The translations under genes were made by a program, and so were the position numbers. From the IMG/VR virus record IMGVR_UViG_3300030107_000008, positions 1-20,420 of that record: a stretch of DNA of 20,420 nt; one strand, given 5' to 3'. This stretch comes from a virus. Below, piece after piece: positions 2,386 to 18,146 of the stretch. The notes under the pieces were generated by a model. That model did not search any database. It was not told the origin of the DNA and saw nothing but the letters and a program-made list of their open reading frames with translations. Each line of letters begins with the position of its first letter. Positions within the stretch are counted from its first letter, which is position 1.

Positions 2386-2993
2386 ACTTCCACCTGTGCA
2401 GTTTCAATACCAGCCGATATAACTACCGATCCAGTTAATACTTGTCCGTAGATAACAGGAACAGCAACACCAGCACGACTTGTATTCTGTATGCCACTAA
2501 AATTAAAAGATAAACGAGGATCTTGTTCTCTTTCTGGAATGTCAGGAACAGGAGTTAACATATTAGCAATACCGCCAAGAACCAAACTAGCACCAATAGC
2601 TGATGATAATGTTCCGATACCAGACATTAACGTACCAGTAGTGCTTGACCCAAAAACGCTTGTAGTTCCAAACATTCCAGCACCAGGAAATAAAAAAGAA
2701 GCTCCAATTAATGCTGCTCCTAATAATATTCTTCCTGTATTACCTCCAGCACCTCCAACAACAGGAATAATTTTTATATCTTCCTGTCCATTAGGATAGT
2801 GTAATTCTTCCTCTCCTATTTCCCAACTATCAACAGCAACCTTATAGTACCTATCGGCCATATGTTTTTCTAACTGAGGAAAATTAACCACTAGAAATCT
2901 TATTGCTTGTGCAGCATTATTAACTTCAGCTTCAAAAGTCTTTTGACCTAGAAACTTTGCTAGTTCTCCGTATAGCTTAATTTTACGCAGCAT
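2382..2993 (-). CDS. I: Lambda gpI-like tail tip assembly protein
   Basis: A 203-aa protein of the lambda tail assembly I family. About residues 1-75 ([17 protein letters not shown]...) resemble the small ubiquitin-like N-terminal part of the family. A glycine- and alanine-rich hydrophobic stretch follows (about residues 80-145, including [18 protein letters not shown]). The protein ends with [20 protein letters not shown], a motif shared by gpI C-termini. In lambda, gpI is needed to assemble the tail tip but is not retained in the virion in quantity. The start overlaps the end of the K gene by 11 nt, and the stop overlaps the J start as ATGA, suggesting translational coupling. The hydrophobic part could be mistaken for a membrane segment but is normal for this family. 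Confidence 0.88.
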
Positions 2994-3684
2994 AACGAAT
3001 CCTCTTACCTGTGCATTTTAGCAACCATTCGTCTAATAAATCACGACTTGATAATCTATTTTGCAAATGATGTAAAACAGTTTGTTCTCCTAAGTAAACA
3101 CCAATATGATTTAATCCGCTACTACTAATTGACATTAATAACAAATCACCTTTTTCTAAATCTTCTTCTTCTGTTAATTCTCTAAAACCTGTTTTTGCAA
3201 AACAATCAACAAACATAGGGTTTTTAACAAAATCTTCTGGATCGTTTGGTCTAATCCAATCTATAAGTTCTATACCTAGTTCATTTTTATACCAATCTCT
3301 ACATAAACTCCAGCAATCAGTTACACCCCAGACCCATTGCCTACCAATTAAAGGTGCTTCATATCCGCAAGGTTCACAATAACCCCATTGTTTAAGATTA
3401 GGTTGAACAATCCACCATTTAATACCAGATTTTTCACAAGAAATCTTATCAGCTTCACTAGGTTTTGGACTTGTAACAGGATGACTATGAACAACAGCAG
3501 TTATTTCTCCTTGATCTTCAGCATTAGCCCAATCTATAGGATCTAAAATAAATTGATCTTTTGGATCTACAGCTAAGTTTTTACAAGGAAAATACTTTTC
3601 TTTACCTTTAATAACAACTAGAAGACCACAAGATTCTCTAGGATCTTCTTTTATTGCGTGTTCAAGTGCTTTATCTTGCCACAT
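2983..3684 (-). CDS. K: Lambda gpK-like tail tip protein: JAB/MPN metallopeptidase plus NlpC/P60 peptidase
   Basis: A 233-aa two-domain tail tip protein. The N-terminal JAB (JAMM) domain shows the metal site intact: Glu17 in RESCG, then HSHP with His66 and His68, six residues, Ser76 and Asp79. The C-terminal NlpC/P60 domain has the nucleophile Cys124 in [12 protein letters not shown] and the histidine His193 in NHIGVYLG. Family knowledge: gpK is required for tail tip assembly, and the NlpC/P60 half is a cell-wall amidase-like fold that may act in peptidoglycan penetration. Both active sites look complete, so two active peptidase domains are a reasonable inference. The start overlaps the L stop as TAATG. 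Confidence 0.93.
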
Positions 3685-9967: not shown

Positions 9968-11254
9968 TTAATCCTGATTAGATACGTTAGTTGCACGAAC
10001 AATACCGATGTTCTTTGTTTCATACACCTTCGACCATGATGCAACAGTTTCCAATACACTTCTGTTTGGGTTAACAGTAGATACTGCATACTTCAAACCT
10101 ACTGGATGGTAGATGTAGTGAAGATCCACAGCCATTGCTTCTTCTAAAGCAAGGATGTCTCTATCTGTTTGAGTTCTGATTGGTGCTTGCTCACCTGTAA
10201 CAACTGATCCTTGTGTAAAGAAAAATGTTGAATACTCAGTAGAAGAACCAGAACCTGTTGTTGGAACATCATCTGAAACAATAACTTTTAATCCCATAAA
10301 GGTAGGAATAGAAGTTGTACCTGGGAAAGCCCCTGCTGTACTACCAGCAGTTGCTCCTGAATCGGCTGCTCCTGTGTTGTCATAAATGCGATCAATAGCA
10401 TTACGTTCAACCAAGTCATAATAAACTTTGGAATGAACTGCCATTGATGTTAATTTAGATCCTTGATCACCTAACAAAGCCTGGGCCTTTGCAACGTGTC
10501 TAGGACTCAAGGCTGTAGGAGAATCACCTGATTCTGAATCAATAGTTAAAGCAAATAAAGCAGAGTTGCTGTCGTTTGCATTGATAGAACCAAATGCACC
10601 AGTTAAGCAAGAGAATAAATCCTTCTGCTTTTGGTTGTTGACGTATGCAGCCATTTTTTGTGCAATAGCAGCCATTGGATCAGGGCCGCCACCAACAGCT
10701 AATGCTGCTAAGTCTCTAGAGCTAAATGCTCTACCTCTGTGCAATACAGCAGCAATTTGATTATCTGCTGTAATCTTGCCAGGTGTTAATGATGTTGAAT
10801 CTGTAAGAACTTCAAAATCACCACTTAAATTTGCTTTGTAAAAAGGTATCTTTACAAAATCTCCGCCTCTTTCTGAGGATAGATTTAATTCTGCCAAAGG
10901 TTGTACGACCCCACTTTGTAAGAAAGCATCCTTTTGGGTTGTTTCTTCGATCAAATCACGTTGTTACCAAGAAAGCTCTTTATCTTTCTTTTCTACATCT
11001 TTTCCATTGATGTAGGTCGGACTATATCTTCAACCTATAAGGTTGCAAGGCACTCGTGTCTCCGTTACTTAGTTTCCTATCGGGAGTTAGTCTCTGAACC
11101 TTCCAGCTTGTTTGCTGGCTTGGCTGCTGATTATCCTTTTATGGTGGACTTCCAGCAATTCACCTTGTTTCATTATGTTGTTACCAACATAAGCCCCAAA
11201 AATCTAGGGTGTGAACACCTCAGGGATAATTAAATCACTTCTTAATGTAGCCAT
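9968..11254 (-). CDS. Major capsid protein, interrupted by a group I intron (exons 11254-11206 and 10956-9968)
   Basis: Exon 1 runs from ATG at 11254 to 11206 and encodes MATLRSDLIIPEVFTP plus the first base of a codon. It then meets TAG in frame. Exon 2 starts at 10956 and supplies the two bases AT. The join gives Tyr and continues LIEETTQKDAFLQSGVVQPL in frame to the stop at 9970-9968, for a total of 345 aa. FTPYLIEETT is the conserved N-terminal sequence expected in this capsid family. Taking the TTG at 10954 as a start instead gives a 328-aa product missing the N-terminal arm. The rest (for example FVKIPFYKANLSGDFEVLTD, HRGRAFSSRDLAALAVGG, VYYDLVERNAIDRIYD and ALEEAMAVDLHYIYHP) is typical of HK97-fold phage capsids. 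It follows the scaffold gene, as expected. Confidence 0.9.
10957..11205 (-). ncRNA. Group I self-splicing intron, ORF-less, in the major capsid gene
   Basis: A segment of 249 nt with all core elements in order on the minus strand. P1: exon CCCU paired to UUGGGG, with a U.G wobble at the splice site (intron starts AG). P2: TTATGTTG-GTAA-CAACATAA, a perfect 8-bp hairpin with a GNRA loop. P3: CAAGG with CCTTG. P4: TGCTG with CAGCA; P5: GTCC with GGAT; P6: CCAGC with GCTGG. P7: GACTA inside GTTCAGAGACTA, paired with TAGTC in AAGATATAGTCC, the textbook R and S signatures. P8: CAACC with GGTTG. P9: CTACATC with GATGTAG. P9.1: AAGAAAG with CTTTCTT. The 3' end is a terminal G. The extra segment between P7 and P3' suggests subgroup IA. 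No homing endonuclease ORF is present. Confidence 0.93.
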
Positions 11255-11324
11255 TAAAAAATTAATCTAATATGTTCACTTCGAGGCACAACCTCTGACG
11301 TAGCACAACCACGTTGTTTCTATA
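11255..11324 (-). other. Short leader upstream of the capsid gene with two small hairpins
   Basis: The 70-nt gap between scaffold stop and capsid ATG holds two small stem-loops on the minus strand: ACAAC-GTG-GTTGT and GAGG-TTGTG-CCTC. There is no T-run after either, so I do not call a terminator. There is no clear Shine-Dalgarno before the ATG at 11254. The spacing suggests a leader or mRNA-processing site for the abundant capsid message. Confidence 0.35.
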
Positions 11325-17109: not shown

Positions 17110-18146
17110 TAACTAGATGATACACGTTTTGCAGTCTTGCCTGTAAAATCCTCCCATCTTTTTACTATCACATCACAATATTTTGGATCTAATTCCATTA
17201 AAAATGATTGTCTTTTAAGACGTTCAGCAGCTATAAGTGTTGAACCAGAACCTCCAAATAAATCAATTACGTTACCTTGTTTATGATTTATCAAAGCTCT
17301 TTCTGCTAATTCAACAGGTTTTTGTGTGGGGTGCATATATGAAACATCTTTTTTTACTTGCCATAAATCACTTTCATTTTTTATATGTTTATCAATTTTT
17401 GCATTAAATAAACAAAACTCGTGTTGATGTCTATAACCAACTCCTAAACCAAAAACATTTTTTGCCCAAACAATACAACCTTTGAAGGGTAACTTTGTTT
17501 GTAATGTTGCGTAAAATTTCCAATTACACCAAACATAATAATGATTAGGATTTAAAATATTTATAATTTCAACCATGCTTGTAATAAGTTCGTTAAAAGA
17601 ATCTTCAGATAAATCATCATTTTTTATAACATCGAATTTTCCACTTCTACCATTAAAAGCAACATTATAAGGAGGATCGGTAAAGACCATATCAGCCTTA
17701 TTGCCATCCATTAATTTTTCAACGTGCAAAATATTTGTAGAGTCACCGCATAAAAGTCTGTGATTATCAAGAATATATAAATCACCTTCTTTTGTTACTG
17801 GTTCTTTTGGAACTTCTGGAACTTCGTCTGGGTCTGTTAAACCTTCTGCTGGTAATACTTCTGTCTCTCCAAGTAATTCTTTTAAATCATCATTATCAAA
17901 CCAGGGGTTTAGATCATGCTCTTGACTTAATTCTTCAAGCATATTTATATCCCATTCTGAAAGGTCGGAGGTTCTGTTATCAGCTAAAGCAAGCCCAACC
18001 TTTTCATCTTCTGAAAGCCCAGTTCTTTTTACAGCAATAATTTCATTACCATCAGTTTCTATAACTTTAAGATTTTTTATACCTGCCGCCTTTGCACCAG
18101 CGATTGTTCCATTCCCTGCAAGTATTCTGTTGTTTTCATCAATCAC
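17109..18146 (-). CDS. ParB-like domain fused to N6-adenine DNA methyltransferase
   Basis: A 345-aa reading from GTG at 18146. It opens within a ParB-like (Srx/ParB-N) domain: DENNRILAGNGTIAGAKAAG. The methyltransferase follows with motif IV FTDPPYNVAF (about 155-164), a central target-recognition region, the conserved MHPTQKPVEL (about 271-280) and motif I DLFGGSGSTLIAAE (about 295-308). This IV-to-I order indicates the beta class. DPPY predicts adenine-N6 methylation. The open frame continues upstream to 18257 and encodes the missing first part of the ParB domain (NDHKNARKRT, then SSKLIKESLQKFG), but contains no ATG, GTG or TTG there. The full gene probably starts near 18251 at an ATT, or the 5' end is damaged. 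No restriction partner is visible, so protection or regulation is inferred. Confidence 0.88.
   Translation of the reverse strand: MIDENNRILAGNGTIAGAKAAGIKNLKVIETDGNEIIAVKRTGLSEDEKVGLALADNRTSDLSEWDINMLEELSQEHDLNPWFDNDDLKELLGETEVLPAEGLTDPDEVPEVPKEPVTKEGDLYILDNHRLLCGDSTNILHVEKLMDGNKADMVFTDPPYNVAFNGRSGKFDVIKNDDLSEDSFNELITSMVEIINILNPNHYYVWCNWKFYATLQTKLPFKGCIVWAKNVFGLGVGYRHQHEFCLFNAKIDKHIKNESDLWQVKKDVSYMHPTQKPVELAERALINHKQGNVIDLFGGSGSTLIAAERLKRQSFLMELDPKYCDVIVKRWEDFTGKTAKRVSSS

Follow-up and report, generated by a model that had tools for sequence, protein, structure and literature searches.

The presence of group I introns in phage major capsid genes is not new: for the mycobacteriophage LittleE, RT-PCR and N-terminal sequencing demonstrated the splicing of such an intron, and an earlier capsid-gene case, that of Tuc2009, is cited in the same paper (PMC3706429). 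The intron described here lies on the minus strand of a 20,420-base stretch of phage DNA, the whole of which is referred to as the window. Like the LittleE intron, it belongs to group I and interrupts a major capsid gene, its upstream exon ends in U, the intron ends in G, and intronless relatives exist; the LittleE intron differs in being 819 bp long, in having a LAGLIDADG-like frame on the opposite strand, in its actinobacterial host, in its occurrence in one phage, and in that its splicing has been shown (PMC3706429). The 265-bp intron of BAKA and Optimus is similarly compact, has no endonuclease, and has sequence in common with an intron in another structural gene, but it interrupts a tail gene and only 156 bp match the LittleE intron (PMC3706429). 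Cyanophages likewise contain group I introns, in psbA of S-PM2 (F-CphI) and in the DNA polymerase gene of Pf-WMP3 (I-PfoP3I), although these are in other genes and are associated with homing endonucleases (PMC6083498, PMC3428280). The T4 introns of td, nrdB, and nrdD and the Twort introns resemble the window intron in their group IA-type core, early in-frame stop, and location in phage protein genes; those of T4, however, interrupt genes of nucleotide metabolism, and most T4 and Twort introns are larger, some with endonucleases. In Twort, several introns lie within one gene.

The window intron is almost certainly a functional self-splicing intron of group IA-like type that interrupts the gene for the major capsid protein of a Prochlorococcus siphophage, a marine cyanobacterial virus, and one copy of an ORF-less family spreading among phages of the same host. 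A literature search of incomplete coverage found no report of this family or of capsid introns in Prochlorococcus phages. The part worth following is the distribution of the family over three sites, as ectopic group I intron movement has so far been backed mainly by circumstantial support. Here, one ORF-less family occupies three sites, divided between two unrelated capsid genes, in phages with the same host, with empty sites and close relatives at hand, and the routes of movement are therefore comparable and testable. The most abundant virion protein would be made ribozyme-dependent, which may provide a fair system for the coupling of splicing, translation, and capsid yield. The locus is also a warning where gene callers overlook the N-terminus of the capsid protein.

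The interrupted capsid gene and the intron boundaries

The source record is assigned to a siphophage because the neighbors of the capsid gene are scaffold, head morphogenesis, portal, terminase, connector, and tail genes. The product of exon 2 matches the major head protein family PHROG 247 (E=3.7e-75) and Pfam Gp13-like (E=6.7e-12), and the major head protein of cyanophage MED4-117 is 90.5% identical to it. These matches bear out a preliminary description of the locus, in which the interrupted gene was taken for the major capsid gene; it is that of a Prochlorococcus siphophage related to MED4-117. Between the window and a related contig, L042, 24 of the 26 differences in the capsid exons are at third positions, and the exons evidently evolve under purifying selection. 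The parts of the gene are as follows.

11206 to 11254, minus strand: exon 1 of the major capsid gene, 49 nt, from ATG (at 11254) to GTGTTCACACCCT, ending in U; contiguous in intronless relatives
10957 to 11205, minus strand: group I intron of 249 nt that lacks an endonuclease ORF; identified by RF00028, with boundaries from intronless alleles
11204 to 11206, minus strand: in-frame TAG spanning the 5' splice site, predicted from the sequence to stop ribosomes ahead of the intron core in unspliced RNA
9968 to 10956, minus strand: exon 2 of this gene (AT TTG ATC ... TAA), encoding a phage major head protein by the PHROG 247, Pfam, and MED4-117 matches

The last bases of exon 1 are CACACCCT, and the intron begins with AG and ends with G (omega-G at 10957). 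Its removal is predicted to join TTCACACCCT/ATTTGATCGA, where the slash marks a junction in phase 1 inside a Tyr codon (T from exon 1, AT from exon 2), giving a product of 346 aa that reads ...EVFTPYLIEETT... across the junction. Among the best IMG/VR capsid relatives covering this position, nearly all are intronless and have a contiguous FTPYLIE or a close variant, with TAT or TAC as the Tyr codon. Because the intronless relatives are contiguous over FTPYLIE(E), the predicted junction is exact. The coordinates 11205-10957 proposed in the preliminary description are thus right to the base, and its restoration of Tyr from T plus AT after a 49-nt exon 1 agrees with the relatives contiguous at FTPYLIEE.

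Translation of the unspliced gene reaches TAG (11206-11204) after 16 codons, as had been claimed, and all resolved family members have an in-frame stop at intron position 0 to 37, 5' of P3. Group I introns that interrupt coding genes usually have such an early stop (PMC3073962), and the junction TAG would keep ribosomes off the ribozyme core. The reported absence of an endonuclease ORF also holds: the longest sense open stretch inside the 249-nt intron is 38 codons, and no intron-borne homing endonuclease is found there. The length of an antisense open frame across the intron is not conserved (38-104 codons among relatives), and this frame is therefore regarded as chance.

A 328-aa ORF is open from TTG 10954, as would suit a degenerate, non-splicing insertion in a gene that is either dead or started downstream, for example at this TTG. 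No ribosome site is evident 5' of that codon, however, and the core is intact and has compensatory changes, while exon 1 still encodes MATLRSDLIIPEVFTP, the same as in intronless relatives. Furthermore, carriers of the intron at a second site (site B, below) are unable to use the TTG start because their intron lies further into the gene. We consider this reading very improbable. For the functional intron, the dependence of virion production on splicing suggested in the preliminary description can fairly be inferred.

Upstream of exon 1, the 5' leader (11283-11314, minus strand) contains paired adjacent hairpins with an identical loop, ACGUGG-UUGUG-CUACGU and GAGG-UUGUG-CCUC. In relatives, the stems vary with compensation, and in several classes of relatives the two loops co-vary (UUGU/UUGU, UUGC/UUGC, UAGUG/UAGUG). 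A search of Rfam with these hairpins gave no match, and they are a candidate cis-regulatory RNA. Elsewhere on the window, 17112-18146 (minus strand) encodes a ParB-like N-terminal part fused to an N6/N4 DNA methylase domain, and 2986-3684 (minus strand) a tail-module protein with a JAB metalloprotease domain and an NlpC/P60 domain, a pairing that resembles lambda-like tail assembly proteins.

The intron family at three capsid sites

Relatives of the intron were gathered by pattern scans and blastn of fetched loci, with family matches of 88-99% identity over 240-249 nt. The ORF-less family occupies three sites, each of them in a capsid gene, and was found on at least 27 contigs (a slash marks the insertion point).

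Site A, TTYACNCCCT/AY: the window, L056, L086, L087, L096, L103, L305, and the truncated L037
Site B, ATCCCT/TTCTAC, phase 0, in the same gene as site A and about 110 nt downstream of it: 18 distinct contigs and the truncated L092
Site C, ..ALFL/KVFSGEVLTAFARNN in a T7-like capsid gene: L121 and L306

The L121 intron at site C and the window intron share 83% identity. The capsid gene at this site is unrelated to that of the window and belongs to P-SCSP2-like Prochlorococcus podophages; it is 95.7% identical to the gene of P-SCSP2, a Prochlorococcus phage that was isolated on MED4. The same strain is infected by MED4-117 and MED4-184, and this host, common to both phage groups, therefore gives a chance of exchange. 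Of 79 relatives, 76 are contiguous at site C without an intron. A scan of 16 carrier records with RF00028 found exactly one copy in each. None of the phage isolates searched had the intron; the matches, in crAss-like and Escherichia phages, were partial or of roughly 70-87%. The family would spread among same-host phages and, as far as seen, occupies capsid sites A, B, and C only. Mutual exclusion of the site-A and site-B introns was considered and set aside, since the zero double carriers where both sites are visible have no meaning with carriers so rare.

Some related and other introns deserve separate mention. In the uncultured crAss-like phage cr1_1 (L307, 3001-3208), a 71% similar intron core adjoins an HNH endonuclease gene, both sitting between two dUTPase pieces annotated as separate genes; it is likely an endonuclease-bearing relative of the capsid intron core. 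On a single-cell contig of Prochlorococcus sp. AG-363-M21 (L258, 605-831, minus strand), a T7-like podophage capsid gene is interrupted close to its 3' end by another, distinct group I intron (RF00028, 94.7 bits), which separates ..TSGDVSVV from QGDVILGRLAMGADF.., and capsid genes have therefore been hit repeatedly; a Glutamine-II riboswitch is also on this contig. A site-B capsid intron of the ORF-less family occurs at 3028-3253 of single-cell contig AG-426-I04 (L291), which is labeled Alphaproteobacteria and is probably a phage or mis-sorted contig.

Secondary structure and pairing with the exons

The preliminary description had claimed a complete group I core, to be checked with the RF00028 covariance model on the minus strand. 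Such a core is confirmed by cmscan, in which RF00028, the sole Rfam match within the window, aligned over its full length (model 1-253 of 253) at 11216-10993 (minus strand) with 89.8 bits (E=3.9e-22; gathering threshold, 50 bits). The R and S signatures are as quoted there. The model stops at P9, and the 3' splice site was placed by exon comparison. The fold of the whole intron has a z-score of -3.74, with none of 200 shuffles equally stable. A structure of 60 pairs (P1-P9.1, including the P3/P7 pseudoknot) was defined on the window sequence and evaluated in an alignment of 24 distinct introns, each with 8 nt of exon per side. Its elements are listed below.

11206 to 11209, minus strand: P1 5' strand, exon CCCU, pairing with the guide GGGG (11197-11194), with U.G at the splice site
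11202 to 11205, minus strand: proposed P10 strand AGAU, which would pair with the exon-2 start AUUU (10956-10953), from inspection of the alignment
11194 to 11197, minus strand: internal guide sequence (IGS) GGGG, from structure and alignment
11175 to 11190, minus strand: P2 hairpin, with compensatory changes in 3 of 6 pairs
11163 to 11167, minus strand: P3 5' strand CAAGG (3' strand 11050-11046)
11124 to 11158, minus strand: P4-P5 (P4 11158-11153 with 11129-11124; P5 11149-11146 with 11136-11133)
11099 to 11123, minus strand: P6-P6a, with compensatory changes in P6a
11088 to 11092, minus strand: P7 5' strand (R element), pairing with 11024-11020, from the RF00028 alignment
11060 to 11086, minus strand: P7.1 hairpin between P7 and P3, a group IA-type insertion, CUCC/GGAG in the window and AAGC/GCUU in others
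11031 to 11045, minus strand: P8 hairpin, from pair counts in the alignment
11020 to 11024, minus strand: P7 3' strand (S element), from RF00028 and the alignment
10993 to 11015, minus strand: P9 hairpin, from RF00028 and the alignment
10969 to 10990, minus strand: P9.1 hairpin, with compensatory changes in 4 pairs

Over the 60 pairs and 24 introns, 99.7% of cells are paired, compared with 94.6% in shuffled alignments and 27-42% with partners slid. Changes on both sides occur in 14 of the 60 pairs (6.8 in shuffles, 0-3 with partners slid). Most of the catalytic core is invariant among the 24 introns, which is expected and uninformative alone. P7.1 occurs as two fully compensated forms, with three pairs changed on both sides in 11 of 24 sequences, and P9.1 is AAGAAAG/CUUUCUU in the window and CCGAAAG/CUUUCGG or CUAAAGG/CCUUUAG in others. 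Subgroup IA is recognized by P7.1, and P7.2, between P7 and P3; P7.1, with compensatory changes, is found here and suggests that the intron is group IA-like.

The claimed U.G pair of P1 and the terminal intron G are both present: the 5' exon U pairs with an IGS G in 24 of 24 aligned sequences, and all resolved family members end in G. The P1 core is CCU with GGG in all family members. At site B, L097 has exon UCCU with guide GGGA in place of CCCU with GGGG in the others, a co-change that directly supports the proposed P1. The P1 loop varies by site and complements the local 3' exon: AGAU with AUCU or AUUU at site A (AUCU in 5 of the 6 other site-A carriers), GUAG with CUAC or UAGA with UCUA at site B, and CUUUA with UAAAG at site C. 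The one exception is L097, for which no clear P10 is seen in the alignment. These putative P10 pairings are short matches and individually weak, and in nearly all copies the loop would fit the local 3' exon.

In the proposed mechanism, P1 (exon CCCU with intron GGGG) would set the 5' splice site, which would be attacked by a guanosine bound at P7. The 3' end of exon 1 would then attack after G10957, aided by P10, and the exons would be ligated in phase 1 within the Tyr codon to encode the 346-aa capsid protein.

Possible routes of spread

The introns are more alike than their surroundings, with mean identities of 92-95% for introns and 81-84% for the surrounding exons, a difference of which ribozyme constraint could be a partial cause. 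Sister introns that occupy different sites have an identical P1 core, CCU/GGG, and no HNH_3, HNH, GIY-YIG, LAGLIDADG_1, or Endonuclease_7 gene was found in the 16 carrier records, mostly fragments. Capsid mRNA is abundant late in infection. The sister introns, the lack of these endonucleases, and the abundance of capsid mRNA suit a route in which the intron moves between sites by reverse-splicing into capsid mRNA, with the short IGS as guide, before reverse transcription and recombination. No source of reverse transcriptase was identified, however, many other CCCU sites are empty, and the P1 loop differs between sites, so that a reverse-spliced insertion would need later adaptation. We regard this route as possible but doubtful. 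The broader proposal of a protein-free group I lineage specialized on capsid genes, moving by RNA-guided reverse splicing between sites and unrelated same-host phages while P1 and P10 adapt to each site, is unlikely and somewhat less credible still.

Spread in mixed infections, either by homing with a trans-acting endonuclease or by ordinary recombination of flanking exon DNA, has slightly better than even chances in our estimate. It accords with the closer likeness of the introns than of the exons, with P7.1 haplotypes common to sites A, B, and C, and with the exon haplotypes adjoining the intron. At site B, [CT]CCT/TTCTAC occurs in 17 of 17 carrier rows (15 distinct) and in 2 of 63 other alleles (P = 2e-15, an optimistic value, as relatedness is ignored). 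The wider site-A haplotype CCCT/AT[CT]T[AG]ATCGA occurs in 4 of 4 carriers and 9 of 76 others. Although their exons are 96% identical, the window has its intron at site A and L042 at site B, and 8 of their 24 third-position differences fall within 33 nt of site B (8 clustered synonymous bases; permutation P about 1e-4). A direct jump from A to B between these two was considered and set aside: the exon haplotypes make lateral acquisition likelier, although intronless L002, which has part of the L042 haplotype, shows that a background mosaic accounts for some of the clustered differences. Only about -8 to +6 at site B is therefore strictly specific to carriers, a stretch that overlaps what P1/P10 pairing would select and, like the lack of the five endonuclease families, counts against homing or recombination. 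Taken as a whole, the exon haplotypes appear to favor lateral gain through DNA exchange. Intron and exon distances nevertheless correlate (Mantel rho 0.42), and part of the history is therefore vertical.
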